A DNA stretch of 53,900 nt from a virus, in the IMG/VR virus record IMGVR_UViG_3300050821_001685, positions 1 to 53,900 of that record, one strand, 5' to 3'. This document shows, one piece after another, positions 11,398-52,975 of the stretch (the first letter of the stretch is position 1; each line of letters starts with the position of its first letter). The notes under the pieces are model-generated. The model did no database searches. It saw nothing but the letters and a program-made list of their open reading frames with translations, and was not told the origin of the DNA. Both the position numbers and the translations under genes were made by a program.

Positions 11398-11491
11398 AAT
11401 TCTGAAGTTAAACCAAATTCCCAAATCCAACGCCACCACCGTACAGGATTTTTCCAAGGCGAGCAAAAAGTCAGGAATTTAGTTGGCGCTG

Positions 11492-12059: not shown

Positions 12060-12061
12060 AG

Positions 12062-12091
12062 GTGGTATGGTCTAGCCGAATTGTCATACAA
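12062..12091 (+). promoter_or_regulatory. Two-box element GTGGTATGGT / GTCATACAA
   Basis: GTGGTATGGT (12062-12071) and GTCATACAA (12083-12091), start to start 21 nt. The same pair occurs at 45817/45839, start to start 22 nt. GTATG and CATAC also form an inverted repeat, so this could be a promoter, an operator, or both. Confidence 0.45.
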
Positions 12092-12108
12092 GCGCAAGGG
12101 CCTAATCA

Positions 12109-36248: not shown

Positions 36249-36983
36249 ATGGTGAATATCGTAAACGCTGGCACGCTAGGGGGAGGGTTTCGGGCGTATT
36301 CCGGACTCCTACCTGTGATGCCCGGCGGCGGCGGTCCCCAAGCACAAGCGACCGTCCGCTATTTTCACATTCCGTCTGCCAATGCGGCAGCGATTTTCCG
36401 GGGCGATATTGTCGTTTGGGCATCGGGCGCGATCGGTACGCCCGGTGCAGCCGACATGCCGTACAACATTTCAGCGCCTTCCGCGTCGGTTGTCGTTGGC
36501 GGGGGCGGCGGTTCGGGGCTCGGTAACGCGTCCATGGACCCAAACATCACCCGATGGGTGCCCGGCGACACCACCAGCGTCATTGCGGGTATCGTTGTCG
36601 GTTTTGGTCCGATCACGCTCTATCAAGCAAAGAACGGTTTTCAGTACGCGCCGGCTTCAACTGAATGCTGGGCCGCCGTTGAAACCAGCCCCGGCGTCGA
36701 AATGGACATTACGATGCCGACTGTGCCGGCTACTGCGTTCAATCTGATTCTTGGGGAAGGCATCGACGTGAAAGCGAATGCCGCCCAACAGTCTACGCGC
36801 TTCGGCATTTCCGGCGTGTCACTTGATCCCGCGACGTTCCAAACCACGTCAACACTGCCGCTTCGTTTGCTCAATTCGGGCGACCAGATCGGCAATGATC
36901 CGACTTCCGCCGGTTTTGTCGCACGGGTGATTTTCAACACCAGTCGGCATTACAGAGGCGGCGGCGCGTTCATCGCCGACTAA
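36249..36983 (+). CDS. Virion protein, possible capsid decoration/cement protein
   Basis: 244 residues. 'ATVRYFHIPSANAAAIFRGDIVVWASG' is the opening beta pattern of small head-decoration/cement proteins. The remainder is beta-rich with 'GVEMDITMPTVPATAF' and ends 'RVIFNTSRHYRGGGAFIAD'. It has no signal peptide, unlike many genes that follow. Decoration proteins bind the outer capsid shell; this role is inferred from pattern only. Confidence 0.5.
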   Translation: MVNIVNAGTLGGGFRAYSGLLPVMPGGGGPQAQATVRYFHIPSANAAAIFRGDIVVWASGAIGTPGAADMPYNISAPSASVVVGGGGGSGLGNASMDPNITRWVPGDTTSVIAGIVVGFGPITLYQAKNGFQYAPASTECWAAVETSPGVEMDITMPTVPATAFNLILGEGIDVKANAAQQSTRFGISGVSLDPATFQTTSTLPLRLLNSGDQIGNDPTSAGFVARVIFNTSRHYRGGGAFIAD

Positions 36984-37025: not shown

Positions 37026-37568
37026 ATGAAGCTCACTTTTCGCGCTGCGTTGACTGCGTTGTTGGTCGCGCTGGCGTCACTCTCAGCCAAAGCGCAGACC
37101 GTCGTACAGGTTCCTACCGTCGTGGCCGCACGTACCGTAGTTGACTTGGGTAACGGGCCAACTGAGATCCGTACGCTTCAAGGCAACATGGGGCTGTTTA
37201 CGTCGCAGGGTTCCGGCGTCGGTAGTACGTCGGGTTCGTCAACCACGCTTACACTAACGGCGACCGCCGCAGCCAATCCGCCGTGCGTTGGCTGTATCAT
37301 TTCCGGCACCGGCATTACGTCGGGTACGACTGTTGCTGCGTTTAACGGAACAACTGGCATCACGCTTTCGGCTGCGATGACCGTAGCATCGTCCACGGCG
37401 CTCGCGTGGGGCCAAGCATGTCCGTCCGCGCCACCTTCGGCGCCGCTCGCGTTGGTTCAAGCGGCAGTTGGTTCCGATTTTCCGATGTATACGCAGGCGC
37501 GCGTGTGCGCGTACGGTGGAAATGGCCCCGGCGCGCTGCTCACGCAATTTGCTATCGGGGCGCATTAA
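37026..37568 (+). CDS. Signal-peptide protein, paralogue of the 42766 N-terminal domain
   Basis: 180 residues from ATG 37026. Signal peptide MKLTFRAALTALLVALASLS with AKA-QT cleavage. The mature part has 'STTLTLTATA', 'SGTGITSGTTVAAFNGTTGI' and 'TLSAAMTVASSTALAWG', closely matching the N-terminal domain of the spike-like protein at 42766. Beta-rich, probably an Ig-like or fibre-anchor domain. The Sec signal predicts export. Function unknown. Confidence 0.7.
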   Translation: MKLTFRAALTALLVALASLSAKAQTVVQVPTVVAARTVVDLGNGPTEIRTLQGNMGLFTSQGSGVGSTSGSSTTLTLTATAAANPPCVGCIISGTGITSGTTVAAFNGTTGITLSAAMTVASSTALAWGQACPSAPPSAPLALVQAAVGSDFPMYTQARVCAYGGNGPGALLTQFAIGAH

Positions 37569-37595
37569 TTCTAGTCGGTAAAGGGGCCGAATCCG

Positions 37596-37901
37596 ATGGT
37601 CGCCAATCCTAGGAACGATCAGCCCCGCAGCTATCAATCTTGGAGTGGTATTTCTGCGACGCCAAATGATTTCAATTTGGACGCTGGCAGATACGGACTG
37701 ACTATAGCTGGCGGTGGTTTTACAAGCTACCAGCTCCAAAGATTGTTGCCTGACGGTGCGACGTACGCGCCTGCCATGCCGGTAACTGCTGCGGCTGGTT
37801 ACACAGTTCTTGACTTGCCGGCGGGCCAGTACAGTTTAGCTGTGGTCGCTACCGCGCTGTCCGGCGTGATTGAAAAAATCGACACGGGGCGCGCACGATG
37901 A
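37596..37901 (+). CDS. Small virion-associated protein, 101 aa
   Basis: Begins MVANPRNDQPRSYQSWSGIS and continues 'DAGRYGLTIAGGGF', 'LPAGQYSLAVVATALSGVIEKI'. From memory this pattern is common in podovirus/rhizobial phage structural regions, where it is a small beta-sandwich protein of the head or decoration. ATGA overlap with the next gene. No signal peptide. Confidence 0.6.
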   Translation: MVANPRNDQPRSYQSWSGISATPNDFNLDAGRYGLTIAGGGFTSYQLQRLLPDGATYAPAMPVTAAAGYTVLDLPAGQYSLAVVATALSGVIEKIDTGRAR

Positions 37902-39160
37902 AGAAATTTTTGCTATTTGTTTTGTTGGCGCTCAACGTTCTTTCTGCGCCTGCGGATGCACAGCAAGTACCGAAAGCCTTGATTTTATCTTCGTGCGGTA
38001 CTGCGTCGGGCTACGTTGCGCAGTTTTACGGTATCCTTACGATGGATACGACGGGGAAGCTATGCATCAACGCCACGGTCACGGCGACGGCAACCACAAG
38101 TTATACCGCCGCAAGCACGCTCCCGACTCTAAGCGCCGGTGCCGGCGCAGCCGGATATGAAAGCCTAGGGGGCGCTCCATACTCGCAACCCGTATTCGGC
38201 AGCGCCTCTGGTGGCGGCACGCAAGTCGATGCCACGCACGGCCTGCCCGTCAATTGCATTGTCGGATGCGCGGCGGGCACCGGAGCAAATAACGCCGATA
38301 GCGTCGCGGCGGTATCGACAGGATTAGGCCCCGTACAATCGTATCCGTTTCTGTGGAATGGCACGACGTTCGATCGCTGGTACGGCGATAAGACGAATGG
38401 GGCGTTTGTTAACGTAAAAACGCTACCTCCCGGCGCCGCGACCTCAGCACTACAGGCTACCAATACCGCGACGACAGCTCACACCTGCTCGGTGGTCGGA
38501 TACTCGATATTGGGCTGCATTGGCCAGATGGACGACGATATTAAAGGCGCGGTGCCTTGGTTGACTGCGACCGCTTGGAACACGAATACTTATACGACCG
38601 GCACGACAAATCCGGGGAACGCCGATCTTCACGGCGCCCCATGGGTTGATATCGGCGCGATCAATGGCGTCGCTGCTCTTGCCGGCGCGGGCGCAACCGG
38701 CACCGGATCACCCCGCGTAACAGCGGCGCAGGATACGACAACAATTGCCGGCTCGGCACCGGGAACGGCGGGAACGCCATCGGCCAATGTCGTGAGCGTG
38801 CAGGGCGAAACGTCGATGACGCCGGTCGCCGTCTCTGGCGCAGTCAATGTCACACCGACCGATTGCTCTACTACGATCACGTCGGGGGGGACGGCGCAGA
38901 ATATCATTTCAGCGGCGGCGACCGTTCATGGTTTTACGATAGCCAACATTGACACGGGGCATAATGCCGAGCCGATTTGGATTTCATTCACCACAACGGC
39001 GGCGGCATCAACCGCAGCGTCCTATCCGCTTTCCGCGCCAACGGCGACGACGTTTGCGGGCCTCGCGAGTTACACGACACCGCTAGGATTTGGGGCTAAT
39101 CACGCTGTTTCGGTCATTGCTGCGACAACCGGGCATATCATTTCGTGCACGCAGTGGTGA
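37898..39160 (+). CDS. Signal-peptide fibre-like protein, mosaic
   Basis: 420 residues. Signal MKKFLLFVLLALNVLSAPADA then QQ. The first about 160 residues resemble the surrounding backbone (GTAC words present); from about 38390 on, the DNA changes character. The C-terminal part is Ala/Thr-rich with repeated 'TTIAGSAPGTAGTPSANVVS' and a beta-sandwich end. Fibre or adhesin style. The composition change inside the gene suggests a recombination joint. Function unknown. Confidence 0.65.
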   Translation: MKKFLLFVLLALNVLSAPADAQQVPKALILSSCGTASGYVAQFYGILTMDTTGKLCINATVTATATTSYTAASTLPTLSAGAGAAGYESLGGAPYSQPVFGSASGGGTQVDATHGLPVNCIVGCAAGTGANNADSVAAVSTGLGPVQSYPFLWNGTTFDRWYGDKTNGAFVNVKTLPPGAATSALQATNTATTAHTCSVVGYSILGCIGQMDDDIKGAVPWLTATAWNTNTYTTGTTNPGNADLHGAPWVDIGAINGVAALAGAGATGTGSPRVTAAQDTTTIAGSAPGTAGTPSANVVSVQGETSMTPVAVSGAVNVTPTDCSTTITSGGTAQNIISAAATVHGFTIANIDTGHNAEPIWISFTTTAAASTAASYPLSAPTATTFAGLASYTTPLGFGANHAVSVIAATTGHIISCTQW

Positions 39161-39165
39161 CGGTC

Positions 39166-39672
39166 ATGCACCGCGTTATTATCCTCGCGCTTCTGCTGAT
39201 CCTCCATCCCGCGCTCGCCCTTGCGCAGTTTCCGGGCGGCGGAACAGTCTCGCCGTGCAGCGGGGACCTCAATACATCGTGTCAAGTCACGAATCTGCAT
39301 ACCGGCGTCAGCCGCGTCCTTTGCTCGATTCGAGCCGCTAATTTCAATGTCACGACCGATCAGTCTTGCGTAATCCCAGCCTCGATCACGGCATGGGTTC
39401 CAACCTCGATCTTGGTAACCAATTGCTCCGGTACGTTCACCTTGGCTGCGGGGGGCGTTTACCCGACGACAAGCAAGGGTGGAACGGCACTGGTTGCTGC
39501 CGCTCAAGTCTATACGGCATTGACCGGCGCAACTGTCATTTTGGGACTGACCCTCGCGGCCAATATTGCAACGACGCGGCAAACGGTCAATGCGGTTTAC
39601 CTGTCGCTGACAACCGGAACCGGGGGCGCCGCGACCTGCGACTTCTATGTTATTGGAACCGATCTCACATGA
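39166..39672 (+). CDS. Signal-peptide protein, 168 aa
   Basis: ATG 39166, 5 nt after the previous stop (a GTG at 39157 is an alternative). Signal MHRVIILALLLILHPALALA then QF. Mature protein beta-rich with four Cys (PCSGDLNTSC, LCSI) and 'TGATVILGLTLAANIATTRQ'. It overlaps the next ATG (ATGA). Exported protein of unknown function inside the GTAC-poor module. Confidence 0.65.
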   Translation: MHRVIILALLLILHPALALAQFPGGGTVSPCSGDLNTSCQVTNLHTGVSRVLCSIRAANFNVTTDQSCVIPASITAWVPTSILVTNCSGTFTLAAGGVYPTTSKGGTALVAAAQVYTALTGATVILGLTLAANIATTRQTVNAVYLSLTTGTGGAATCDFYVIGTDLT

Positions 39673-40859
39673 TATGGCGGTTGGCTCTTGCGGCAATCCT
39701 GACGGCTGCGCTTTCTCTATTCGCGCTTAGTACGCCCCACGCGCAATTCAATGGTTGCCCGGCAGGCTTTTGTAATCCGCCAAGTGCATCGGCGCCAGCG
39801 AGTTATACTGGCCCACTGGATATCGTCAGTTCCAACGTCGTCGGCTGCTGGGCGCTGCGAGCGTGCAGCGCGGCGGCGCGCGGCACGGCGGCGATCAATG
39901 CTTGCAATCTTGGTGATGCCGCGTGCGCGGACGTTCTCACCGACGCCTCGACCGGGCAATTGCCTGCCGGGGTGCTGACTATCGGCGGCACGCCCTGCAC
40001 GGTTACGGTATCGTCTGGAACTTACAGCAGCGTGACGGGCGGCGTGGTGCTGACAACCGCGACCAGCAGCGGGCTCGCAAGCGGCAATTCGTTCGCGGAA
40101 ATCTTGACGGGAACCGGCAGTATTAGTTCTCTTAATAACCAATTTGTAGCGATAGCCGGGACAACCGGCACAACCATCACTTTCACGGCTGCATCCGGGT
40201 TGACACTCACCATTACGGGCGGGGTGGTTTCGTTCTGCACAGGCAAAATTATCTACGATCAGAGCGGTGCCCTCGCCTGCGGCGGTTCAACAGCTTGCAA
40301 TCTGGTCCAGGCAACGATTGCCTCTAGGAGTATCCTGCAAGCGAATTGCATCAATACGACGTTTCGCTGCTTGAGCATCACAGGCGGCGAAGGTTATAAC
40401 TCGGCGAACAGCTTGCCGACGATCACGCAGCCCTACACGCAGTCGCTTGTCGCCTATACCGATGCGACCAATTCTCACAGCAACACCATATTCAGCAGTA
40501 GTGCGGGGGGCGATCTGTTCGGGTTACACGCCAACAACAATGCACAGGGAGCTATCTTCAACGGCGCTTATGGCACCTGGACCGCGAACGACAACGCATG
40601 GAACGCCATGGGTGTGGTCGGCAACGCCGCCTCGTCGATCTACAACAACAACGGAACGGCCGGCACGCCGTCCGGCAATCCGGGAACTACCCCTCCATCC
40701 GGCACGATGCAGATGGGCTATTATACCGGCGCGCCAACGCTCAATTTTAATGGTTTCTTTGTCGAGGGTGTCTTTTGGAAAGCAGGAAACTCGGCGACAC
40801 AACTTAACAACGTTGTCAGCAACCAGCGCGGCTCGGCCAACGCCGGGTGGAATTTCTGA
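39669..40859 (+). CDS. Exported arabinofuranosidase-like / lectin-like protein
   Basis: 396 residues from ATG 39669. Signal MIWRLALAAILTAALSLFAL...AQF. 'GPLDIVSSNVVGCWALRACSAAARG', then 'CTGKIIYDQSGALACGGSTAC', resemble the catalytic/ConA-like domain of alpha-L-arabinofuranosidase B-type proteins (capped by 'CxxxxIYDQSG'). The C-terminal half is a LamG/concanavalin-like beta sandwich ('SHSNTIFSSSAGGDLFGLHANN'). Probably binds or cleaves a surface polysaccharide. Whether catalytic residues are intact cannot be judged here. Confidence 0.6.
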   Translation: MIWRLALAAILTAALSLFALSTPHAQFNGCPAGFCNPPSASAPASYTGPLDIVSSNVVGCWALRACSAAARGTAAINACNLGDAACADVLTDASTGQLPAGVLTIGGTPCTVTVSSGTYSSVTGGVVLTTATSSGLASGNSFAEILTGTGSISSLNNQFVAIAGTTGTTITFTAASGLTLTITGGVVSFCTGKIIYDQSGALACGGSTACNLVQATIASRSILQANCINTTFRCLSITGGEGYNSANSLPTITQPYTQSLVAYTDATNSHSNTIFSSSAGGDLFGLHANNNAQGAIFNGAYGTWTANDNAWNAMGVVGNAASSIYNNNGTAGTPSGNPGTTPPSGTMQMGYYTGAPTLNFNGFFVEGVFWKAGNSATQLNNVVSNQRGSANAGWNF

Positions 40860-40861
40860 CA

Positions 40862-42469
40862 ATGCGAGCATGGAAAGTCGCTTTCGTTCTGCTGGTCGTA
40901 CTGCTGAACGGAAGTTGGGTGCATGGCGTCGCGTTCGGTCCCGGATTCCCCGGTTTCCTGCCGACGTGTAGTTCGACCTACGCGGTTAAAAATCTAGTCT
41001 TGCAGTCGCAGTCGTTCACGACCTCACCGTGGACGTTGTTCAGCGCGGGAGGCGCCTCCAATCCGACGGTGACGGCCAACACGGCGGTTGCGCCGGATTC
41101 AACGATGACCGCCTCGACGCTGGCGCTGCCAGCCGTGACCTCTGGGCAGTCGTCGATCCTCTATCAGTCAGTATCATTTAGTGGCAATCAGCCTTACGTC
41201 ACCGACATCTATATCAAGGGTGTGGTCGGCGGCGAGACATTGTGGTTCGGCATCGAGATCGGCGGCGGGACCGGCTACGTAACGCAAAAAATTGTCGCGG
41301 CGACTTCGTGGCAACGCATTCCGGTGCCGTTCGTTTCCGCCAATACCACGCTGCTAGTTCAGATTGGCGTCGATACGCGTGGTTCGTCTGGGCAGACCGG
41401 GCAAAGTGCCCAATCGGTCTATATCTGGGGCGCGCAGGCAATCGCCAATCAGGTTGAGCGCAACTATGTTCCGACCACAACCTCGACCGTCACGCAGCAG
41501 CAGACGGTGAACTGCCCGCCGGGCATCGCCTTCCGGGATTGGACGGCGCTGCAAGCTGGCTACCCCGGCACGACCACGGTGCCACAAGGGGCCGGCGCGC
41601 AGTGGAACGCGGGTGCCCAGGGCGCGGCCTTCAACACCGGCATCGTCATCGGCGGCGTGACCTATGCGCCGACCTATGCGGCGCCGACGCCTTATCCCTC
41701 GTCGAAGAACTTCGCAATCGGGATGCTATCCTCGACCAATTACGCAGGGGCATGGTCCCAGGCCTGCACCAATCCGATCATCCCGCTCGGCGGGGACATC
41801 CAGACCTATGCGATCACGCCGAACATGATCCTACAAGTCGGTTCGTCGCCGGCGAAGTATCTGCTCTATTTCAGTGCACAATCTACCACCTATGGCATTC
41901 AGGAAATTTATCTATTCACGTCAAGCGATCCTTCAAATTGCAGCGGTTGGACGGCCTATTCGTCGTTGCCTGTTCTCATCGGTGGTCCCGAGGCTAATGG
42001 CGCGTCCGTATCCCTGCCGTGCGTCGTGTACATCGGTGGTCAATATTTGATGTATGTCACGACGGCCCTTTCCGGCGGTGAGGGAATTTTCTACTACACA
42101 TCGCCAAACGGCCTGCCGCCCTGGACCTATGGCGGTCAGGCATTAATGATAGACGCGAACGATTGGGATACTGGCGGCGCTGTCGAAGAGGATGCTTTTG
42201 TAAATCTGAATAAGCATGGCTTCTATGAAATGACCTATGCCGGCGATGTCAACCCGACGCAGAGTATTGGTTACGCGATTTCTCAGGACGGGAAAATCTG
42301 GTTCAAATATCAACCTGCGGCTATCCTTCCGGGCAGTGGTGGATCGGCGCTCTTGGGCGACTCGAACATGATCGAGGTGGGCAATAGCCTATATTTCAGC
42401 TATGATACCTCGACCAATTCCAGCCCCTACACATCAAGCGGGGCAGTTATCGTCATACCGGATCATTGA
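40862..42469 (+). CDS. Exported GH43-like propeller with carbohydrate-binding domain
   Basis: 535 residues from ATG 40862, 2 nt after the previous stop. A signal-like start (MRAWKVAFVLLVVLLNGSWV). Residues about 40-195 follow the CBM-like pattern common in phage tail proteins ('NLVLQSQSFTTSPWTLFSAG...'). From about 215 on, blades with 'GIQEIYLFTSSDPSNCSGWT', 'YFSYDTSTN' and 'SQDGKIWFKYQPAAILPG' fit a five-bladed GH43/GH32-like propeller. Candidate exopolysaccharide depolymerase. It sits next to another polysaccharide-active-looking gene. Confidence 0.6.
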   Translation: MRAWKVAFVLLVVLLNGSWVHGVAFGPGFPGFLPTCSSTYAVKNLVLQSQSFTTSPWTLFSAGGASNPTVTANTAVAPDSTMTASTLALPAVTSGQSSILYQSVSFSGNQPYVTDIYIKGVVGGETLWFGIEIGGGTGYVTQKIVAATSWQRIPVPFVSANTTLLVQIGVDTRGSSGQTGQSAQSVYIWGAQAIANQVERNYVPTTTSTVTQQQTVNCPPGIAFRDWTALQAGYPGTTTVPQGAGAQWNAGAQGAAFNTGIVIGGVTYAPTYAAPTPYPSSKNFAIGMLSSTNYAGAWSQACTNPIIPLGGDIQTYAITPNMILQVGSSPAKYLLYFSAQSTTYGIQEIYLFTSSDPSNCSGWTAYSSLPVLIGGPEANGASVSLPCVVYIGGQYLMYVTTALSGGEGIFYYTSPNGLPPWTYGGQALMIDANDWDTGGAVEEDAFVNLNKHGFYEMTYAGDVNPTQSIGYAISQDGKIWFKYQPAAILPGSGGSALLGDSNMIEVGNSLYFSYDTSTNSSPYTSSGAVIVIPDH

Positions 42470-42471
42470 CC

Positions 42472-42606
42472 ATGAACAGCATCATCATCGCCGCCGACAT
42501 CCTGGCCCTGATCGTGGCGATCTACGCCGTGATGCTGGGCAGCAACGCGCCAAATCCTTACACGGAGACGGATACGTGGAGGGATCATGAGATCGAACGA
42601 CAATAG
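42472..42606 (+). CDS. Small membrane peptide, 44 aa
   Basis: ATG 42472, 2 nt after the previous stop; TAG 42604-42606. MNSIIIAADILALIVAIYAV forms one membrane helix, with a polar tail (DTWRDHEIERQ). Function unknown; may travel with the acquired module. Confidence 0.55.
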   Translation: MNSIIIAADILALIVAIYAVMLGSNAPNPYTETDTWRDHEIERQ

Positions 42607-42667
42607 CCCGGTGGGGCTGGCGAAGGTGGCGTGAGGACGGACCACAGAGCCAAAAAGGAATTAAGAA

Positions 42668-42766
42668 ATGACGCGAATAATGCTGATTGTCCTGCTTTGG
42701 ACGGTATCGTTGGCAGTTCTTCCGGCGCTGTGTTACTGTGCGCCCGAACTTTTATGGCATGACTGA
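42668..42766 (+). CDS. Tiny hydrophobic peptide, 32 aa
   Basis: AAGGA 7 nt before ATG 42668; TGA 42764-42766 overlaps the next ATG (TGATG). MTRIMLIVLLWTVSLAVLPA, then LCYC. Looks like a signal peptide or small membrane peptide, possibly mainly translational coupling for the spike gene. Confidence 0.5.
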   Translation: MTRIMLIVLLWTVSLAVLPALCYCAPELLWHD

Positions 42767-44733
42767 TGCGCAGGTTTTTGCTCACCTTATTGCTACTTTG
42801 CTGTACGGCGTTTCCCGCGCTTGCGCAGACCGCCATTACTTTGCCGATTGCTGCAAACGCGGTCGCCGATTTAGGTAATGGCCCTATCAAAGTTCGTATG
42901 GTTGCAGGCAATGCGTCAATCTTTACGGCGCAAGGATCTGGCATCGGCAGCACATCGGGGCCATCCACAACTTTGACGTTGACAGCAACGCCAGCAACAG
43001 CGCCACTTGTTGGCGGCTTGATTTCTGGTAATGGCATTACGTCAGGGACGACAATAATAGCGTACAACGGTACGACGGGCATTACGCTTTCGGCCGCGAT
43101 GACCGTACCAAGCAGTACGACAGTTTCATGGGGCGCCGCGTGTCCGTTGTCCGCCCCTAGCAACGTCATCCAAGCATCACCGCAAGCCGGCTACTATATA
43201 ATGTACACACAGGCGCGCGTGTGTGCAGTTTCGCCGGGCGGCCCGGTGAACACCCTTTTGATTTCGCCGGTTTTCAACGACATCGGCGGTAGCGGACCCG
43301 TAAACGGCCCAAGTTCATCAGTAGTGGGCGATATCGCAGAGTGGGCTAACGGTGCCGGAACGCTGCTTAAAGACGTAGCCCCGGCTGCGATGGTTGACCA
43401 GATATGTGCAACTAACAATGACTTTTTAATTCGGCTTAGTGGCACTTGGCAGTGCGGTTCGCTGGGCGCGGGTTTGTCGCTTACGGGTTCGGTGTTATCC
43501 ACAGCTCCCGGTGTTGATGCTAACATTCAAAATCAGCAATCCGGTAACTATACGGTCGCTATGACAGATTGCGGCGCAACTATTTATTTTAGTGTCGCGA
43601 GTCAGGCTACGTTAACACTACCCGCTGTTACCGGATTTCCGTCGAATTGTTCAGTGCTAGTTAAAAGTAGAGAAAGTAATCCGAACGGCGTAATCCTTTC
43701 CGGTTTTCCGGCTGCGTTTGGACCAATACTATATCCCGGTCAATCTTTAGGTGTAAAAATCACCGGCTCAAGTCCGGCGTGGCGTTCTTTCTATAATCCG
43801 CAGCCGTGGGCGCCGGTATCGGCTGTTACATTGTTTGCGAGTTCAACTGGCAATGACGCTAATGACGGCCTTACAGTCGGAACGCCGATTACGCTCGCCA
43901 CGGCTTGCTCGCGCCGACAAACGATTTTTCAGCCCGGCGCCGTTACCATTCAGCTCGCCGATGGCACGTACTCGACGCCTGATTCTAACGGCGCGCTTTG
44001 TACGGTGTACGGTAATTCCGGCGGTAATTCTAATACGCTTACAAATATAGTTGGAAACTGTGTTACGTTAGGTAATGTGCTTTTGTCTATCCCGGACGGC
44101 GACACGGGCATTTTTATAAAAGATATTGGAGAAGTAGAGGGCCTTTGTATAGCACTTCAGGGTGCCGGATCTGGCGTAAGCATCGGTGTCTCAGGTGCGC
44201 AATTTTCTGTATTCGACGCACAGCAAACGCTTTGGCGCAATTTTGGCGCGGGGAGTATCTTAGCTGACTTCGGCCAAAGTGCTTCGTTCAATCTCATTGG
44301 CGCGGCAGCAATGACTTTAAACGCCGCACCCGGCGGATCGGGCACGGTTATCGCACTTGCAAGCAGTGCAAATATGTCATCGGGTGCCGCGACTATCGCT
44401 ATTCCGTCTGCATTGGCATGGGGCGGCCAGTTTCTTGAACTCTACGGGCCGACCATGGCGACCTTGGGTGGCTTGACATTTACAGGGGCGGGCGTGGGTG
44501 GGACAACTGGCAAGCGCGCCACACTGATCGGAGGGGGTGCTTTTCTCGTTACCGGCGGTGTTTCCTGCAACACGTTCTTTCCTGGCAGCGGCTCTTGTAG
44601 TATCATCGACGGGGCGCAAGATGATGCTGGCGACAATCCGACTTCGCCAACTCCGGTTGGCGGCACGAATTGCGTACTGACGGCTGTATCGCATCTAACA
44701 GTTGTGAACGGGGTAGTTACGCTATGCAATTAA
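42766..44733 (+). CDS. Exported tail-spike-like protein with beta-helix pattern
   Basis: 655 residues. Signal MRRFLLTLLLLCCTAFPALA then QT. N-terminal domain (about 25-165) is paralogous to the 37026 protein. The middle is a small beta domain. From about residue 355, 'ASSTGNDANDGLTVGTPITLATAC' opens a parallel beta-helix-like region, as in phage spikes and pectate-lyase-like enzymes. The C-terminus ends 'LTVVNGVVTLCN'. A spike architecture combined with a Sec signal is unexpected for a cytoplasmically assembled virion. Confidence 0.65.
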   Translation: MRRFLLTLLLLCCTAFPALAQTAITLPIAANAVADLGNGPIKVRMVAGNASIFTAQGSGIGSTSGPSTTLTLTATPATAPLVGGLISGNGITSGTTIIAYNGTTGITLSAAMTVPSSTTVSWGAACPLSAPSNVIQASPQAGYYIMYTQARVCAVSPGGPVNTLLISPVFNDIGGSGPVNGPSSSVVGDIAEWANGAGTLLKDVAPAAMVDQICATNNDFLIRLSGTWQCGSLGAGLSLTGSVLSTAPGVDANIQNQQSGNYTVAMTDCGATIYFSVASQATLTLPAVTGFPSNCSVLVKSRESNPNGVILSGFPAAFGPILYPGQSLGVKITGSSPAWRSFYNPQPWAPVSAVTLFASSTGNDANDGLTVGTPITLATACSRRQTIFQPGAVTIQLADGTYSTPDSNGALCTVYGNSGGNSNTLTNIVGNCVTLGNVLLSIPDGDTGIFIKDIGEVEGLCIALQGAGSGVSIGVSGAQFSVFDAQQTLWRNFGAGSILADFGQSASFNLIGAAAMTLNAAPGGSGTVIALASSANMSSGAATIAIPSALAWGGQFLELYGPTMATLGGLTFTGAGVGGTTGKRATLIGGGAFLVTGGVSCNTFFPGSGSCSIIDGAQDDAGDNPTSPTPVGGTNCVLTAVSHLTVVNGVVTLCN

Positions 44734-44990
44734 TTTGGTTACTTATTTTGTTCGTTACTTTCACCGCTACCGCCGATGCCGGGCCGGCATGCGACGCCTT
44801 AGCAGTACGCGCAATGGCCTGCACGACGCTTGATTTGTCCGCAGTTTCGCAATGTATCCGAATGGCAGTGGAGAAAAATCAGTGCCTTGTTACGGAAGGC
44901 AAAGATGCCGAAAGCGTCGCCGTTCAGCCGGCAGTTGACAACTACTTGGCACAGCGCATCGCCGAGCACAAACGGCTGTACGGACAATGA
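44724..44990 (+). CDS. Signal-peptide Cys-rich protein, 88 aa
   Basis: ATG 44724 overlaps the spike gene by 10 nt. Signal MQLIWLLILFVTFTATADA then GPAC. Mature part has four Cys (PAC, MAC, QCIR, NQCLV) and helical pattern. Exported or periplasmic; a spanin-like role is conceivable next to the membrane protein that follows, but no spanin signature is seen. Confidence 0.6.
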   Translation: MQLIWLLILFVTFTATADAGPACDALAVRAMACTTLDLSAVSQCIRMAVEKNQCLVTEGKDAESVAVQPAVDNYLAQRIAEHKRLYGQ

Positions 44991-45274
44991 TTGTTGACGC
45001 AGGGACCATAGCCGCTGGCGTCGCTGCTTTGAATCTCGTGCTTACAGTGGGTGGCGGCGGTTTCTTTGCTGGTAAGCTGACTGGTAAAATCCAGCGCATT
45101 GAAACCGATGTGAGAGAGACTAAAGGTTTGCTTGTTACGTCGGCAGTTGAGGCCGATCGGCTCCGACGCGCGGAAGCTGACATACAGAACGTAGAGGAAG
45201 ACATTCGGAATTTGCGGAAAGGTGTCGGCTGGATAAACGACGCGGTTGCAAAAGGCATCAACCGGGAGTATTGA
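44987..45274 (+). CDS. Membrane-anchored coiled-coil protein, 95 aa
   Basis: ATGA overlap with the previous gene. MIVDAGTIAAGVAALNLVLT and following Gly-rich residues form an N-terminal membrane helix, then a charged coiled coil (EADRLRRAEADIQNVEEDIR). The helix plus coiled-coil plan fits i-spanin or holin-accessory proteins. Function inferred only. Confidence 0.6.
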   Translation: MIVDAGTIAAGVAALNLVLTVGGGGFFAGKLTGKIQRIETDVRETKGLLVTSAVEADRLRRAEADIQNVEEDIRNLRKGVGWINDAVAKGINREY

Positions 45275-45276
45275 AC

Positions 45277-45304
45277 TTCCTTGCTGTCCGAAAGTTGTTA
45301 TAAT
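45277..45304 (+). promoter_or_regulatory. Promoter with perfect TATAAT
   Basis: TATAAT (45299-45304); the matching -35, TTCCTT (45277-45282, 16-nt spacer), is weak. It precedes the gene at 45338, which has a TAGGAGA ribosome site. Confidence 0.55.
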
Positions 45305-45337
45305 TGGCATCATGCCAAAATCCTAGGAGAACGGACC

Positions 45338-45760
45338 ATGAGTGACCTAAAGAACGATCTTCAACAGCTTTTCAACAAACTGAAGGGAGTGGAAGAGCGC
45401 GCCCGCAAGCTGAAAAACCAGAATCTTGCGGACATTGCGGCGTCGGCGCATGGAAAGGTCAAGCAACTTAGCGACCATCCCGACTTGGAGCTGGTGGACG
45501 AAAAGAAAGACCAGCAGGCTCGACCGGACGGTACGTTGAAAGCCGATCCGAACGCGCCTAAGACCAAAGAGGAAGCAATCGCTTCCTATGCGCATGCGGG
45601 TGATACGAACCCGGAAAATTCGGCTCGAATGAGGTGGCCGCACTTGTTTACCGAACCGGCACCGCTCCGCGAACCGCCGCATTCGGGTGCTCAGCAATGG
45701 CCCGGGTCACAGCCGGTGCAGCCTAGGCCGCTCGGCGCCGACGAATACCAGCGGTCCTGA
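45338..45760 (+). CDS. Hypothetical protein, 140 aa
   Basis: ATG 45338. N-terminal helical domain (MSDLKNDLQQLFNKLKGVEE...), then an acidic/Pro-rich tail with 'PKTKEEAIASYAHAG' and 'SGAQQWPGSQPVQPRP'. Own promoter and a hairpin after it, so a single-gene transcript is likely. Function unknown. Confidence 0.65.
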   Translation: MSDLKNDLQQLFNKLKGVEERARKLKNQNLADIAASAHGKVKQLSDHPDLELVDEKKDQQARPDGTLKADPNAPKTKEEAIASYAHAGDTNPENSARMRWPHLFTEPAPLREPPHSGAQQWPGSQPVQPRPLGADEYQRS

Positions 45761-45772
45761 CGCTGATTGAGT

Positions 45773-45798
45773 AGGCCCCTGCCGCGCGGTAGGGGCCT
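45773..45798 (+). terminator. Hairpin after the 45338 gene
   Basis: AGGCCCCT (45773-45780) pairs with AGGGGCCT (45791-45798). A strong stem but no T-run, so termination strength is uncertain. Confidence 0.5.
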
Positions 45799-45816
45799 AT
45801 GAAAGCCGGGAACCAA

Positions 45817-45847
45817 GTGGTATGATGCTTTAAACGGCGTCATACAA
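45817..45847 (+). promoter_or_regulatory. Two-box element GTGGTATGAT / GTCATACAA
   Basis: GTGGTATGAT (45817-45826) and GTCATACAA (45839-45847). TGGTATGAT also reads as an extended -10. Same pair as at 12062. Precedes the gene at 45861. Confidence 0.5.
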
Positions 45848-45860
45848 AGGCAGGCCCCCT

Positions 45861-46118
45861 ATGAGCACTCGATTTCGCGGCAAAAAGACAGGCTTCAATA
45901 AGATGGGGAGCAACGATTGCTGCCCCAACGAAATGGGGCCTCCCACTACGAAATTCTTGGGGCGCGGCGGTTTGCCGGAAGGGCCCTTGAAGCACTATCC
46001 CGGCGCGGTGGCGGATACGAGCATGGGCAATCGTCGGCTGGCGAAGTCCAACCATGGCGACGGTGGGGGCTCTAGTACGCGATTCAGCGGCAATACGGCT
46101 TTCGATAAAGGCCGATAG
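45861..46118 (+). CDS. Hypothetical Gly-rich basic protein, 85 aa
   Basis: Begins MSTRFRGKKTGFNKMGSNDC. Gly/Arg/Lys/Ser-rich, probably disordered. The next gene is in the same frame directly after its TAG (46116-46118). Head of the late tail cluster behind the 45817 element. Function unknown. Confidence 0.6.
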   Translation: MSTRFRGKKTGFNKMGSNDCCPNEMGPPTTKFLGRGGLPEGPLKHYPGAVADTSMGNRRLAKSNHGDGGGSSTRFSGNTAFDKGR

Positions 46119-46127
46119 GGGCGCGTT

Positions 46128-46544
46128 TTGTTCTACAGGCCGGGCGGCAGCGCGACACGGATCAATAATCAAAATGATACCGTGTACGCCGATTTTGTCG
46201 GCGGTGCGACCGGATGGTTGCCGGTGAGCAAGGGCAACACTATCTCCGTCAACATAGCTCGCGCTTTGCTGGCGTTCGTTAGTTCCGCGCAGAGCACCAT
46301 AACGCCGTCGCCGGTCGCTCCCGAAGTTCAAGTTATTATGGAAATGAAGTTGTACGGCGGCGATCCCGACGCGTCCGCGCGCCCGATTGACCAATGGCAA
46401 AACATTGTCGTTGCCACGTCCCGACGTGCTCACCGCGAAGGTTGGGCGCGGCTGCGCATTGTCAACATCAACAATAGCGAAGGTACGGGTATTGTTATGG
46501 ATATGCAGATTGCCCGTACAGGGGATGTAGGTGCCTCCACATGA
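46128..46544 (+). CDS. Virion or tail protein, 138 aa, TTG start
   Basis: No ATG at the N-terminus; TTG 46128-46130 with GGGG 7 nt upstream is the likely start (MFYRPGGSATRINNQNDT). Beta-sandwich-like ('VQVIMEMKLYGGDPDASARP'). It lies in frame with the upstream gene across TAG plus three codons. ATGA overlap with the next gene. Function unknown. Confidence 0.6.
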   Translation: MFYRPGGSATRINNQNDTVYADFVGGATGWLPVSKGNTISVNIARALLAFVSSAQSTITPSPVAPEVQVIMEMKLYGGDPDASARPIDQWQNIVVATSRRAHREGWARLRIVNINNSEGTGIVMDMQIARTGDVGAST

Positions 46545-47170
46545 GCGGCTTCGATCAAGGAACAACGCAAGGCGGCATATTCGTCCAAACGAAGCAGTTT
46601 GGCTCAATCTTGCGCGGCTCCGGCCCGCCCGTGCCGGGGGCGGGCGTCGTTGGTGATTTGTACATTGATGTACAAACTTGGTTTCTGTACGGGAAACGCA
46701 GTGCGGAGGGCACAGATCCTTGGGGCCATTATCTGTTTGCTGTCCCTGCGCAGTATCAGTCCGGCTTGAACTGGTTTAGCTCATCGCTACCGACAAACGA
46801 TTTTGGGGCGAACGGCGATTATTGCCTGCTTTGGGCCGGGTTTAACAACTACGGGCTTCAGCCGTCTTTTTGCGGCCCGAAGGCAGCCGGGGCGTGGCCC
46901 GAAAGCGGCGACGGGCCGGACGCACTGCTTGACCCGGCAAACGCGGGTTATACGATTCCTGTTGATGGCGCGAGCGAAGGTCCGCTAGTTCCGTTCAGTA
47001 ATTCGTGGCAGCTCGTAGTCGTGGGCGTGGATACGGAATACGTTTTGTCCATCCCAGTGTCGCAGCTTGCGAATACGCCTATTCTTCAACGCGGGTTACG
47101 TTCGCCGCCCGCTGTCGTGCCTGTGGTTCTTAATCCGCTCTATGCCGCTGAAGACGAGCATGCCATATGA
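46541..47170 (+). CDS. Tail-type protein, tandem paralogue A, 209 aa
   Basis: Begins MSGFDQGTTQGGIFVQTKQF, then 'GAGVVGDLYIDVQTWFLYGKR', a motif ('GDLYID..T..LYGK') typical of phage fibre and tail-tip domains. A 60-70-residue insertion (about 130-195) is absent from the neighbouring copy at 47167. ATGA on both sides. Probably part of the tail or fibre assembly. Confidence 0.65.
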   Translation: MSGFDQGTTQGGIFVQTKQFGSILRGSGPPVPGAGVVGDLYIDVQTWFLYGKRSAEGTDPWGHYLFAVPAQYQSGLNWFSSSLPTNDFGANGDYCLLWAGFNNYGLQPSFCGPKAAGAWPESGDGPDALLDPANAGYTIPVDGASEGPLVPFSNSWQLVVVGVDTEYVLSIPVSQLANTPILQRGLRSPPAVVPVVLNPLYAAEDEHAI

Positions 47171-47595
47171 GTGGCTTCGACAACGGCACAATTCAAGGTG
47201 GCGTGTTTGCACAGACGAAGCAATTTGGTCCGGTGCTTCGTGGTACGGGCGAGCCCGTGCCGTCTGCCGGCGTCGTTGGCGACGTGTACATAGACACACA
47301 GACTTGGTTTTTGTACGCAAAGCGAGCCAATGACAAAACGAGTCCGTGGGGCAATTATTTGTTTGCCGTGCCCGCGACTTATCAAGCCGCGTTGAACTGG
47401 TTTAGTTCCGCACAGCCAACAAACGATTTAGGTTCCAACGGCGATTATTGTTTGTTGTGGGGCGGCTACCCGAACTACGGGCTTCAGCCATCCATTTTAG
47501 GACCGAAAGCAGCCGGCGCGTGGCCTGCTAACCCCGTTGCCGTAGCGGTTGCGCTCAATCCGCTGTATACGGCTGAAAACGAGCACGCCGTATGA
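47167..47595 (+). CDS. Tail-type protein, tandem paralogue B, 142 aa
   Basis: Begins MSGFDNGTIQGGVFAQTKQF and parallels the upstream gene for its full length (GDVYIDTQTWFLYAKR..., 'NYGLQPS..GPKAAGAWP', 'LNPLYTAENEHAV') but lacks its central segment. Result of tandem duplication. ATGA on both sides. Confidence 0.65.
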   Translation: MSGFDNGTIQGGVFAQTKQFGPVLRGTGEPVPSAGVVGDVYIDTQTWFLYAKRANDKTSPWGNYLFAVPATYQAALNWFSSAQPTNDLGSNGDYCLLWGGYPNYGLQPSILGPKAAGAWPANPVAVAVALNPLYTAENEHAV

Positions 47596-48203
47596 GCTAC
47601 AACCCAGCCACAGATTTCATCGGTCTTCTGCGGCTAGTCGGCAGCGGCGTGCGCTCAGAGCGCATGCCGGGGCTCGATTACATCGTTGCTGCGCTGGCTC
47701 GTGCTGGGATGTTCGCTCTCTCGGTCGGGCAGACGGCACCTACGGCAAATCAAACGAGTACCTTTTGGCTTCAACCTGCTATTCCTTCTTGGACAGCCGA
47801 AGGCACGCTGTATATCTGGAACCCGGTAACTGCGTCTTACCAAATTGCGACGTCGGCGCTGTGGCAGGCATTTTTGTCGCCGTCCGGCTCGGTTTTCCAA
47901 TCACTGCCCGCCGCGAACAACGTCATCAATCCAGGTGTTTCGCTCGCTGCTATACAACGTGCGGCGCCGGCCAATACAGCCGTACAGCTTCCGACGATAG
48001 CAGCGCAGTATCTTACACAAAAGGATATTGTGCTGACTGATTTCTCTACGGGCGTCGCCAATCATCAGATTATAGTTTCGCCAGTTGGCGGTGCCACGAT
48101 CATGCAGAGCGCAACGTGGAATTTACAATCCACCGCAGACTATTTGGCGCGCATTCGTCTTCGCCCTTCCCCTGATCTCAACGCCTGGATATTGATACCA
48201 TGA
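47592..48203 (+). CDS. Tail-type protein, 203 aa
   Basis: Begins MSYNPATDFIGLLRLVGSGV; central 'STFWLQPAIPSWTAEGTLYIWNP' resembles tail-tip or receptor-binding accessory domains. Beta-rich C-terminus. Coupled by ATGA to both neighbours. No named family. Confidence 0.6.
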   Translation: MSYNPATDFIGLLRLVGSGVRSERMPGLDYIVAALARAGMFALSVGQTAPTANQTSTFWLQPAIPSWTAEGTLYIWNPVTASYQIATSALWQAFLSPSGSVFQSLPAANNVINPGVSLAAIQRAAPANTAVQLPTIAAQYLTQKDIVLTDFSTGVANHQIIVSPVGGATIMQSATWNLQSTADYLARIRLRPSPDLNAWILIP

Positions 48204-49489
48204 GAATGTTTCGCACTGCTGCCGTTCTCGCATTCTTGCTGGCCTGCGTACCGGCTTTTGCACAGCAGACGGCAATTCATTCCGTTCCGATCGGTAAGGG
48301 TGCCGGCAATACCGGGTTTAATGCCGCAGTGCCCGGTGCATCAGGTCAACCGCTTGTCAGTCAAGGCCCTAGTGCGGACCCTGCTTTCGGTCCAATTGCT
48401 AATAGTGGCCTTACCCCCGGCGCTGCGAACACGGCGAAAGGCAGTCTGAACGGCACAGCCGTAGTAGATCTCCCACTGCCAAGCTGTACGGCTGTTAATC
48501 AGGCGTGGAAGTACGTATCCGGCACCGGCATAAATTGCAGTGCTGTCAGCAGCACGACTGGTTACGACATGCCGATCAATCTTGGCTTGTCGGCATCCAT
48601 TTCCGGGGGCGCTCTTACTCTCACTTTGACGCAAGCAAACAGCAGCGCGCCTACTAGCAGTAACCCGGTTCAATTTCCGTTCCGATCCACTACGCCAACG
48701 CTCGGCACGGTGACGTGGGCCAACGTCACTGCTACCCAATCTATCACCATACCCAATGGTGCGACGCTCGGCACCGCGAGTGGCATACCTTTTCGCATTT
48801 GGATTTTTGAAGAATACAACGGCGGTACGCCTGAATTGGCGGTAGCGACATGCAGCAATACTACTACCGTTTTTCCGTGTGCCGCGTGGGAAAATACGCT
48901 TGTAACCAGTACGACTATTGGCGGTTCGTGCGGCAGTCCTTGCGATACAGCGGGGGCGTTGCTTGCTTCTGCTGGCGTTGCCGCCGATGCCGTGCGGATT
49001 ATAGGGTTTTGTGAGTACGGTAGCGGGCTGCCCACTTTTGGTACTTGGTCTAGTTCGTGTACGAACCTGCAAGTGTTCGGTCCTGGCGTTGCGAAACCAG
49101 GGAGTGCGGTGCAGTCGGTTTACTTTAACACTGCCGGCAGCACTACTTGCACTACGAGCGCGTATGTCATTACCGCTGTCACGCAGAACATCACGCCGAG
49201 CAGCACTGCCAATCTCATTCTCGCGAACGCCGCCGCTTCAACGGTTTCCAATACGGCGGGCGATGCTACCAATATTACGCTTACGCACGGTGCCGGTGCT
49301 GCCATTGGCCAGCCTGCCACTGTTGGCACAACCGGCGCAAGCGTAGTTACCAAAGGCTCGGCGTCTTTTCAGGTGCTAGACGCCCCTGGGACCGTAAGTT
49401 CTGAAAACTATTCGATTTGGTGCCAAGGCGTTGGCGGCAACGGCAGCGAAGGCGGCGGCACTATAACGCTGCAAGAAATTATGGGATAG
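48200..49489 (+). CDS. Signal-peptide fibre-like protein, 429 aa
   Basis: Signal MRMFRTAAVLAFLLACVPAF then AQQ. 'IGKGAGNTGFNAAVPGASGQPLVS' and 'AWKYVSGTGINCSAV' are typical fibre-shaft motifs. The middle has repeated Cys pairs (TCSNTTTVFPC, SCGSPC), suggesting disulfides formed after export. Ends 'GGGTITLQEIMG'. Eighth exported-looking protein of this region; the endolysin follows 4 nt later. Confidence 0.65.
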   Translation: MRMFRTAAVLAFLLACVPAFAQQTAIHSVPIGKGAGNTGFNAAVPGASGQPLVSQGPSADPAFGPIANSGLTPGAANTAKGSLNGTAVVDLPLPSCTAVNQAWKYVSGTGINCSAVSSTTGYDMPINLGLSASISGGALTLTLTQANSSAPTSSNPVQFPFRSTTPTLGTVTWANVTATQSITIPNGATLGTASGIPFRIWIFEEYNGGTPELAVATCSNTTTVFPCAAWENTLVTSTTIGGSCGSPCDTAGALLASAGVAADAVRIIGFCEYGSGLPTFGTWSSSCTNLQVFGPGVAKPGSAVQSVYFNTAGSTTCTTSAYVITAVTQNITPSSTANLILANAAASTVSNTAGDATNITLTHGAGAAIGQPATVGTTGASVVTKGSASFQVLDAPGTVSSENYSIWCQGVGGNGSEGGGTITLQEIMG

Positions 49490-49493
49490 TCAC

Positions 49494-50216
49494 ATGAGCA
49501 ATCCGTACATAGCGCAACAGCGCGCTCAGTTCGCGAAGGACTTGGCTGATCCGGTGACGCATGACCAAGTATGCGCTATGATGATTACTGAGGATGCCGC
49601 ACACCCCGTGCCGTGCCTCGAGAGCCTGCTCAACCGCATTCTGTACTGCAACTCGCACGGTTATAAGCAAACCGTTCTTTCGATGCTGCATAGCGGTTTC
49701 TACGGCCCGTATAATCGCGGTACGTACCCCCGAACGATAAGACAGCTTCACGTCAATCCGGCGCTACAAGCAAGGATGGACGCTGCGATAGCAACCGTGA
49801 TGGCAGGCAGCGATCTTATCCACGGTTTCACCGATCAAGGGCTACCGACCGACCCGAACGGGCAGCGGCAGCCGCAAATGAGGCTTGGGGGTAACATCTT
49901 CAACGATTGGGGTGGCGGTCCTGGGGGTCACGATGGCGCGGAAGCATGGCGGCAGGTATTCGAGGCAGCAGCGGCCAAGGCAGCGCCGCCTGTAACATCG
50001 GCCATCGCTGGGCTGCACACTACCGACAATCTGCAAACCGCGCTCAATAGCTTCGGCTACGCGCCGCTGCTCAATGTGGACGGGCAGTATGGCGACGCTA
50101 CTAAGGCGGCTATCAGATGGTTCCAGGCGAAGCACTCGTTAACAGTTGATGGCGTGCCGGGGTCGATGACTTGGGCATCGATCGATGCTGCCATTAACGG
50201 AGACCAGATCGGCTGA
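49494..50216 (+). CDS. Endolysin with C-terminal peptidoglycan-binding domain
   Basis: 240 residues. N-terminal catalytic-type domain (VTHDQVCAMMITEDAAHPVP...LLNRILYCNSHGYK) with a Glu-centred motif, like SleB/muramidase-type phage lysins. A Gly-rich linker, then a clear PG_binding_1 domain ('LQTALNSFGYAPLLNVDGQYG...TKAAIRWFQAKHSLTVDGV...'). No signal peptide, so it would need a holin. Exact bond specificity unknown. Confidence 0.7.
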   Translation: MSNPYIAQQRAQFAKDLADPVTHDQVCAMMITEDAAHPVPCLESLLNRILYCNSHGYKQTVLSMLHSGFYGPYNRGTYPRTIRQLHVNPALQARMDAAIATVMAGSDLIHGFTDQGLPTDPNGQRQPQMRLGGNIFNDWGGGPGGHDGAEAWRQVFEAAAAKAAPPVTSAIAGLHTTDNLQTALNSFGYAPLLNVDGQYGDATKAAIRWFQAKHSLTVDGVPGSMTWASIDAAINGDQIG

Positions 50217-51092: not shown

Positions 51093-51431
51093 ATGAACAA
51101 AACACAGCTTCAGACGACTGCCGCTTCACTCATTGGCGTTGCGGCCGGCTACGCAGCGGGTCACGGTTGGCTTGGCTTGGATGTCGGCGCTTGGACAACT
51201 ATCATGGGCAGCGCGGTTGCTGCTGGTGCCGTCCTCTGGCCCGCTATTGTCACTCGCGCGCAGTCCCTCAAGGACACCGTCGGCAAGATGCCGAAAACTA
51301 CCGTCGTGACTGACAAAGCCACCGCCGACGCGCTCCCGAACAACCCTGACGTGATCGCCGCGACGCCGGAAATCGTTGCTGCCATCAAGAAAAGCGGCGA
51401 CGATAGCACTACGGGCGCGACGGTGCGGTGA
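51093..51431 (+). CDS. Holin-like membrane protein, 112 aa
   Basis: ATG 51093. Residues about 8-25 (ASLIGVAAGYAAGHGWLGLD) and 32-50 (TTIMGSAVAAGAVLWPAIVT) are membrane segments, with a polar Thr/Asp/Lys-rich C-terminus. A two-TM holin plan beside the endolysin. Its stop overlaps the terminase GTG (GTGA). Confidence 0.6.
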   Translation: MNKTQLQTTAASLIGVAAGYAAGHGWLGLDVGAWTTIMGSAVAAGAVLWPAIVTRAQSLKDTVGKMPKTTVVTDKATADALPNNPDVIAATPEIVAAIKKSGDDSTTGATVR

Positions 51432-52975
51432 ATTTTCCTTGGACACTTTCGACCGTTTTGCCCGTACAGACTAGGGAAGCCATACGGGCAAAACTTCTCG
51501 ATTTCGATTACTACCGTGAAAAGTTCATGCGCATACGCCCCCGCGAAGGTGGCGAGCGCATTCCGTTCATTCTCAATAGCCCTCAAAAGTTTTTGCACGC
51601 TCGCATTAACCGGGAGCGTGAAGTGTTCGGCACGGTGCGTGCGCTCATACCTAAAGCGCGCCGCATGGGCGTCAGCTCTTATATCGGCGGCCGATATTTC
51701 CATCAGACTGCGACCATGTTCGGCCGACGTGCGCAAATCGTAGCACACCGAGCGGACAGCGCGGCGAACTTGCATCGTGAAGTCAAGGAATTTTCCAACG
51801 GTCTGCCGCACGCCATACGTCCGTCGATTGGCGCAACAAATGCGTATGAGCTGATCTTTGACAAGCTGAAATCGCTGTACAAGGTCGCGTCTGCGGACGG
51901 TGGCGATATCGGTCGTTCTGATGACTTCCATTTGTTGCACCTATCCGAAGCTGCCTTTTTTGACAACACGGAAGATTTGTCGTCCGGCCTTTTGCAAACC
52001 GTACAGAACTTGCCGGGTACTGAAATAATCATGGAAAGCACCGGCAACGGACAGTCCGGGATGTTTTTCAGTATGTGTGAGGAAGCCAGCCGGCAGCAGA
52101 ATAGAGGACCGTGGCGTATTCACTTCCTGCCGTGGGGCCTCATGCCCGAATACCGTACGGATGTGCCGCAAGGATGGATCGTGCCAAAAGAGTTTGAAGA
52201 CTATGCTAAATTGCATGGCCTCGATCGTGAACAGCTTTATTGGTTCTGGATGCAGAATTACACCATCGCGGCAATGAACGGCGGGCAACCTGAGACGATT
52301 CACCGACTGACGCGCCAAGAATATCCGGCCATCTATAGCGAATGTTTCATGGCTGACAGTACGCTGGATTTCTACCCGGCGTCGTTAGTCCAGGCGGCCA
52401 TGACCAGCAAGGCAGCGCCGTCCGCCGGGGCGTTGAAGTTGCTTTGTGTAGATCCTGCCGGTGATGGTCAAGATAAACCCTTTGTCTGCGATCGGCAGGG
52501 CTCTGCGATCGGAGCGCGGGTATGGGGTGAGCTGGCGAGCCGCGACGCCAACGTGGCATCCGATTGGCTGGTAGCGACATTCCGACGCTTCGGCATGGAC
52601 GCCATACTAATAGACGGAACAGGTGGTTATGGGCGCGACTTGGTTGCTGGTTGTCGGCTGCGCATGCGGGAGTTGGGGCCGGAAAAAATTGTAGCCGTTG
52701 TATTCAGCCACGGCGCTCACAATTCTGTTATGTACGGCAATCGGCGTGCGGAATTGCACGATAAACTGTTGTGCTGGCTTGGCGGCAAGGTATCGATGCC
52801 AAACGACAAAATGGCGCAAGAGGAAGCGGCGGCGTACAAGTGGGGTCAGAACGCTTGCCGTCGTGACGAAAACGCGCGGCTGTTTATGACGCCTAAAGAA
52901 AAGATCAGAAAAGAAATCGGTCGGTCACCTGATCGCTGGGACTGTTGTGCTATTTCGATGGCGATTGAGAGTTAA
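51428..52975 (+). CDS. Large terminase subunit (TerL)
   Basis: 515 residues from GTG 51428-51430. ATPase half: 'TVRALIPKARRMGVSSYIGGRYFH' (degenerate Walker A region with the R-rich motif common in TerL), 'DDFHLLHLSEAAFF' (Walker B-like), 'ESTGNG' coupling motif. Nuclease half: 'LLCVDPAGDGQDKP' (D of the RNase H-like core), 'ILIDGTGGYGRDLV', 'PDRWDCCAISMA'. It cuts and pumps phage DNA into heads. Last gene of the plus strand before the convergent minus operon. Confidence 0.85.
   Translation: MNFPWTLSTVLPVQTREAIRAKLLDFDYYREKFMRIRPREGGERIPFILNSPQKFLHARINREREVFGTVRALIPKARRMGVSSYIGGRYFHQTATMFGRRAQIVAHRADSAANLHREVKEFSNGLPHAIRPSIGATNAYELIFDKLKSLYKVASADGGDIGRSDDFHLLHLSEAAFFDNTEDLSSGLLQTVQNLPGTEIIMESTGNGQSGMFFSMCEEASRQQNRGPWRIHFLPWGLMPEYRTDVPQGWIVPKEFEDYAKLHGLDREQLYWFWMQNYTIAAMNGGQPETIHRLTRQEYPAIYSECFMADSTLDFYPASLVQAAMTSKAAPSAGALKLLCVDPAGDGQDKPFVCDRQGSAIGARVWGELASRDANVASDWLVATFRRFGMDAILIDGTGGYGRDLVAGCRLRMRELGPEKIVAVVFSHGAHNSVMYGNRRAELHDKLLCWLGGKVSMPNDKMAQEEAAAYKWGQNACRRDENARLFMTPKEKIRKEIGRSPDRWDCCAISMAIES

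Follow-up and report, generated by a model that had tools for sequence, protein, structure and literature searches.

The accepted view has tailed phages making and assembling their spikes and fibres in the cytoplasm. Why, then, should eight genes in the spike/fibre region of such a phage begin like proteins meant for the Sec pathway? The question is raised by the window, i.e. the whole stretch of 53,900 nucleotides that was analysed, a virus record representing a tailed-phage genome of 53.9 kb. In one relative the same gene occurred twice, 52.7 kb apart, indicating a genome of ~53 kb. The window encodes a terminase large subunit (51428-52975, plus strand; phrog_2, E=1.6e-18), a protein with a Phage_capsid_4 domain match (7071-7859), a head-closure protein (at 9504), a DNA-ejection protein (at 12109) and an endolysin-like protein with a peptidoglycan-binding domain (49494-50216, plus strand; PF01471, E=3.3e-16). 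A GroES-like Cpn10 domain (4082-4684, minus strand; E=4.7e-5) adjoins the genes of the capsid region. Judging from the terminase, capsid, Cpn10-like, head-closure, DNA-ejection and replication genes, the particle would be podovirus-like in morphology. The gene scan recognised replication genes and, among the window genes scanned, no integrase, which suggests a lytic phage.

Relatives were sought with the terminase as anchor. It showed ~30% identity at best with terminases of isolated phages, while close terminases were present in 41 uncultured contigs. A 1312-aa protein, encoded at 31524 in the window, was found in 20/20 long relatives tested; two relatives, G011 and G012, are near-identical. 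The stretch from the 1312-aa gene to the terminase gene was taken as the cassette of each relative, its genes were called and their N-termini were scored. Among isolated phages, the cassette gave no match in a near-DNA search, and the DLGNGP domain, the adaptor and the outer-membrane (OM) barrel described below gave none by tblastn; the HSVPIG family, the 40862 protein and the 1312-aa protein gave partial, weak matches only.

All eight open reading frames were recovered with ATG starts on the plus strand. Each has an N-terminal hydrophobic stretch, and their mature parts lack any further TM-like segment, which speaks against membrane anchors. The strict rule used for Sec signals (n-, h- and c-regions), which found 9/10 E. 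coli signal peptides in a control, was passed by six of the eight. The first of these (37026-37568, 180 aa, 4 Cys) is the short form of the DLGNGP family, with a signal of about residues 1-23 and the site AKA-QT; its AlphaFold model (pLDDT 84.6) has a signal helix at 2-17, a low-confidence, disordered linker at 23-25 and a confident beta domain. The others passing were 37898-39160 (TMDTTGKLC family, 420 aa, ADA-QQ, 8 Cys), 39166-39672 (168 aa, ALA-QF, 6 Cys), 40862-42469 (535 aa, GVA-FG or nearby, an odd number of 5 Cys), 42766-44733 (a DLGNGP domain with a long variable C-part, 655 aa, ALA-QT, 14 mature Cys) and 48200-49489 (HSVPIG family, 429 aa, AFA-QQ, 10 mature Cys). The product of 39669-40859 (396 aa, 12 Cys) fell below the threshold, its apparent site HA-QF having Pro at -3. 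That of 44724-44990 (88 aa, 4 Cys) has a strong hydrophobic core and the site ADA-GP but no basic residue (MQLIWLL...), so the initial annotation errs here in giving every protein a basic start. Its broader claim of eight Sec signals held firmly for the six, which show the basic n-region, h-region and AxA c-region of Sec/SPI signals, and less well for 39669 and 44724, in which these features are weaker. An LLAC motif made 48200 a candidate lipoprotein; this was rejected, since the upstream Cys is not conserved in the HSVPIG family whereas its PAxAQ site is invariant or nearly so.

The frequency of such starts is far above chance. Random N-termini drawn from the mature composition of the same proteins passed the rule in 23/4150 cases (0.55%). 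Control genes elsewhere in these phages passed in 18/244 cases, 13 of the 18 belonging to one conserved outer-membrane-barrel slot, as compared to 73/306 genes in the cassettes of the relatives. Seven passing genes were removed as membrane proteins, small TM/holin-like proteins or, in one case, a lipoprotein-like protein, the membrane proteins taken out by hand being signal matches of the type 'MNKTQLQ...' and O-antigen-ligase-like proteins. Proteins that narrowly failed the rule were added back on N-terminal reading alone. The final set comprised 83 signal proteins in fixed slots of 20 phages (19 relatives with a cassette, and the window).

Are these signals in use? The composition of the mature proteins argues that they are. 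Cysteine made up 1.89% of the mature signal proteins as compared to 0.71% of the other cassette proteins. When the signal proteins were clustered into 42 unrelated families, even Cys numbers outnumbered odd ones 36:6 (binomial p 1.4e-6) with no family Cys-free, a count open to some bias because the narrowly failing additions were picked with Cys counts visible; the strict-rule set alone gave 63:6, families not being collapsed. Non-signal cassette families, in contrast, gave 16:13, and 23 more were Cys-free. In the DLGNGP alignment one Cys pair was gained or lost as a unit, two members had acquired a second, and a third was invariant. Mean identity within this family was 32% in the signal region and 57% in the mature part, and the diverged regions still read as signals. 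Mature signal-protein modules were matched by 219 ORFs, none of them a clear case of a complete homologue lacking a signal, the 35 unflagged ones being fragments, over-extended reading frames or signals below the rule. The sole case resembling a signal-less counterpart was in the relative G013 (L063 cassette, 11271-13250), where the adaptor domain runs in frame into a pectate-lyase-like spike that has 16 Cys but lacks a signal. Conserved signals, Cys parity and covariation, and divergence with the signal kept together indicate that export is real, and vestigial signals were rejected as an explanation. The systematic export proposed in the initial annotation thus agrees with the even Cys numbers, the Cys covariation, the recurrence of signals in conserved slots and the presence of an OM barrel gene in the same phages, and by computation export of the signal proteins is well supported and very likely.

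What the exported proteins might do was approached through their resemblances. PHROGs and Pfam were mostly empty for the eight, a tail PHROG being matched by 40862 alone. The N-half of that protein is tail-protein-like (phrog_5939, E=2.5e-6), and its C-half gave a weak match to glycosyl hydrolase family 43 (PF04616, E=9e-4) that at 19.1 bits did not reach the cut-off of 32.2. The 39669 protein resembles, at the level of motifs, ConA-like lectin proteins that occupy the same slot in relatives, the lectin match itself being weak and seen only in a relative. Cassette proteins of the relatives gave weak ConA-like and BNR/Sortilin matches, and beta-helix and GH-A-like motifs were recognised by eye, among them a beta-helix-like C-part in 42766; several of these enzyme assignments are thus weak or made by eye. 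A Wzy_C (O-antigen-ligase-like) membrane protein lies in or next to the cassette of six relatives (G007, G008, G014, G015, G016 and G017, among L050-L072); one protein was scanned (E=2.4e-6, 27.8 bits against a cut-off of 31.7) and the motif is present in all six. No O-antigen-ligase-like gene was recognised in the window. Secreted proteins that touch polysaccharides, one of the options raised by the initial annotation, became the leading reading, in keeping with the weak GH43, BNR-repeat, ConA-like lectin and O-antigen-ligase matches in the cassettes.

We therefore favour a late export programme in which spike-like proteins that bind or cleave glycans work on the host envelope and are freed at lysis, a proposal that we give an even chance of being correct. 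During infection, the host Sec machinery would take up the spike- and fibre-like proteins of the phage, signal peptidase I would cut the signal, and the mature proteins would form disulfide bonds as they fold in the periplasm. In build the constant N-terminal domains recall fibre adaptors; the variable C-terminal ones may bind or cut surface glycans. The proteins would then act on the envelope first from the periplasm and, once the cell has lysed, from outside. By removing or masking receptor glycans they could keep progeny from being trapped on the dying cell and its debris, and keep out sister or rival phages. The phage OM barrel, along with the O-antigen-ligase-like enzyme in some relatives, would be part of the same envelope remodelling.

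The strongest competitor holds that the exported proteins are parts of the virion: spikes would pass into the periplasm, fold and become oxidised there, and dock on virions at lysis through non-signal partners that had been assembled on the particle in the cytoplasm (47592, 36249 and 37596). The evidence for it lies in the modular build of the cassette. Constant N-parts joined to largely unrelated C-parts, as in virion fibres and spikes, were found in three signal families (DLGNGP, TMDTTGKLC and HSVPIG): in the three, pairs of members were alike in their N-parts in 140/153, 28/28 or 253/253 cases, and in their C-parts in 46/153, 9/28 or 3/15. Moreover, each of these families directly follows a non-signal partner gene of its own. 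The short DLGNGP gene follows a 245-aa gene (36249-36983, plus strand, in the window) in every cassette that holds it (17/17), and TMDTTGKLC follows a gene of ~100 aa in 8/8 cases; in the window the latter partner (37596-37901, plus strand, 101 aa) shares a 4-bp ATGA overlap with 37898, and the pair is kept in relatives. HSVPIG lies directly after the adaptor-like gene in 17/18 cases, with an exact 4-bp overlap in 15. This adaptor, of the TTDF...MPGLDY family, has neither signal nor Cys (47592-48203, plus strand), overlaps 48200 by ATGA and is preceded by two non-signal fibre-like genes (46541-47170 and 47167-47595, plus strand). A frameshift fusion of 47592 with 48200 was considered and rejected, the overlap being ATGA with no slippery run seen by eye. 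In relatives, longer forms of the adaptor carry collar- or spike-like C-parts and no signal, and in G013 the adaptor is joined straight to its signal-less spike-like C-part.

Structural likeness points the same way. About 75 residues of the DLGNGP domain resemble the capsid decoration protein of the Arthrobacter phage Bridgette (PDB 8eci; structure probability 1.00, 33% identity), with a sequence match of E=0.0036, although only part of the protein is covered by the match, and in the phages described here the domain comes after a signal peptide and contains two Cys pairs. The domain also matches viral collar, fibre and structural proteins. Since constant N-parts with variable C-parts are the build of virion receptor-binding proteins and the DLGNGP domain is like a decoration protein, docking on the particle fits these features better than does a free enzyme. 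On the other side, the partner proteins would stay cytoplasmic until lysis, and neither the OM barrel nor the signal proteins that resemble enzymes depend on a virion. Four-bp overlaps are common throughout the operon, so gene coupling is weak evidence for docking. To our knowledge, no tailed phage matures its spikes in the periplasm. We consider maturation outside the cytoplasm somewhat unlikely overall, and slightly more doubtful still that this phage group builds part of its virion there, adding at lysis, through coupled adaptors, oxidised spikes that could not form in a reducing cytoplasm. Envelope work is favoured by the OM barrel and by the members that resemble enzymes, docking by the constant N-parts and partner genes, and both may be true, of different members. 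The pairs of constant N-part and partner gene offer interactions that can be tested.

A ninth signal protein, absent from the initial annotation, is encoded at 1560-2378 on the minus strand. It is a predicted 8-stranded OM beta-barrel of the OmpA/NspA/Ail type: eight long strands were predicted after a signal peptide (mean pLDDT 69), the best solved Foldseek matches were OmpA (1e-5) and NspA (3e-5), both with probability 1.00, along with Ail, and Pfam gave no match. The last residue was F, Y or W in 9/12 homologues; the window copy ends ...YNFVLSAN. Homologues were detected in 21/34 relative loci searched, mostly on the minus strand just beyond the terminase gene and in one case elsewhere. In L035 and L045 the barrel's place is taken by a signal protein of ~1090 aa (MKRI...AQGLPNFGGSQLPNNPGG), on the minus strand beyond the terminase gene. 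Since an OM barrel must pass through Sec, the window phage would use this pathway in any case. Could the exported proteins dock on this barrel and shield receptors, serving superinfection exclusion only? A general precedent exists in the receptor-blocking OM proteins and lipoproteins that phages encode, and barrel and signal spikes co-occur in the same phages. However, there was no sign of an interaction between barrel and spikes, and the search for the barrel came up empty in several relatives with signal spikes, some loci there being short. Such surface display is improbable.

It is still less probable that the proteins are ordinary fibres of the virion, never exported, whose N-termini are hydrophobic or vestigial. 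Their position among fibre-like genes and their fibre-shaft-like and decoration-like motifs would suit such fibres, but Cys parity and covariation and the constraint on signals despite divergence would not, and signals occur in some families only, the fibre-like proteins next to them having neither a signal nor Cys pairing. Nor are the signals a general habit of alphaproteobacterial fibres: the fibre of an isolated Bradyrhizobium phage has a related shaft motif and no signal.

The initial annotation had also suggested that the signals are retained from host ancestors, which the genomes of the host family do not bear out. The signal sequences diverge faster than the mature parts and are nevertheless kept as signals. 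DLGNGP was essentially absent from 297 genomes of this family (one weak, stop-broken match), and HSVPIG was found in 7/297, with three strong matches, in prophage-like settings where these were read. On this scarcity, host capture of the spike families was rejected. An origin by capture of secreted proteins from the host, or by the joining of host DNA to the contig, is extremely improbable: the barrel profile does match 149/150 host-family genomes, often in several copies, but the same slots recur between phage genes in many independent contigs and DLGNGP and HSVPIG are as scarce as stated. By their distribution over genomes the spike families are phage families and not captured host genes, and only the barrel looks host-derived, as it probably is given its matches. 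The host is probably a member of the Xanthobacteraceae (Hyphomicrobiales), as the HSVPIG matches fall in the family of a Pseudolabrys MAG, beside phage-like genes where the context was read. Signal-bearing fibre-like proteins near tail-fibre- or integrase-like genes were also seen in host-family genomes (L073/L110 of the Pseudolabrys MAG, L101/L107, and L109). One such genome tested had no relative of the window terminase, and the export habit may therefore extend to other phage groups.

In a widespread lineage, the export of two to eight such proteins per genome, along with an OM barrel, through Sec would mean either a large, unseen programme of envelope takeover or spike maturation in the periplasm. 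We found no described phage export programme like that of the window in the open-access literature, and the nearest systems each share only some of its features. Tailspikes, depolymerases and RBP adaptor systems, such as the tailspikes of P22 and Sf6 and the depolymerases of K-phages, have the same constant N-part and variable C-part, with beta-rich, glycan-directed C-parts; the known ones, unlike the window proteins, lack Sec signals, and their production and assembly are cytoplasmic. The serotype-conversion genes gtrABC of P22 and wzy of D3 remodel envelope glycans and find a likeness in the Wzy_C-like gene of the relatives, whereas the window, from a phage suggested to be lytic, has no recognised counterpart. 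Glycoside hydrolases regarded as auxiliary metabolic genes of soil viruses are, as here, phage-encoded proteins known from metagenomes, and viral CAZymes including GH43 have been reported there (PMC10227523). The GH-like proteins described here, however, carry Sec signals and are encoded within a fibre cassette, and the passages of that report consulted describe no such signal-bearing cassette. For metagenomic viral glycoside hydrolases, such a setting makes a role in infection as likely as one in carbon metabolism.

Closest in purpose are the envelope proteins by which phages exclude superinfection, namely the lipoproteins Llp of T5 and Cor of phi80 and N15, and the Lc porin of PA-2. Like the proteins described here they are phage-encoded, exported to the envelope and proposed to affect access to receptors, and the OM barrel comes closest to the Lc porin. 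They are, however, single small lipoproteins or a porin, mostly of temperate phages, whereas the fibre operon of each phage of the window group encodes some two to eight spike-like proteins that are large, modular and Cys-paired.
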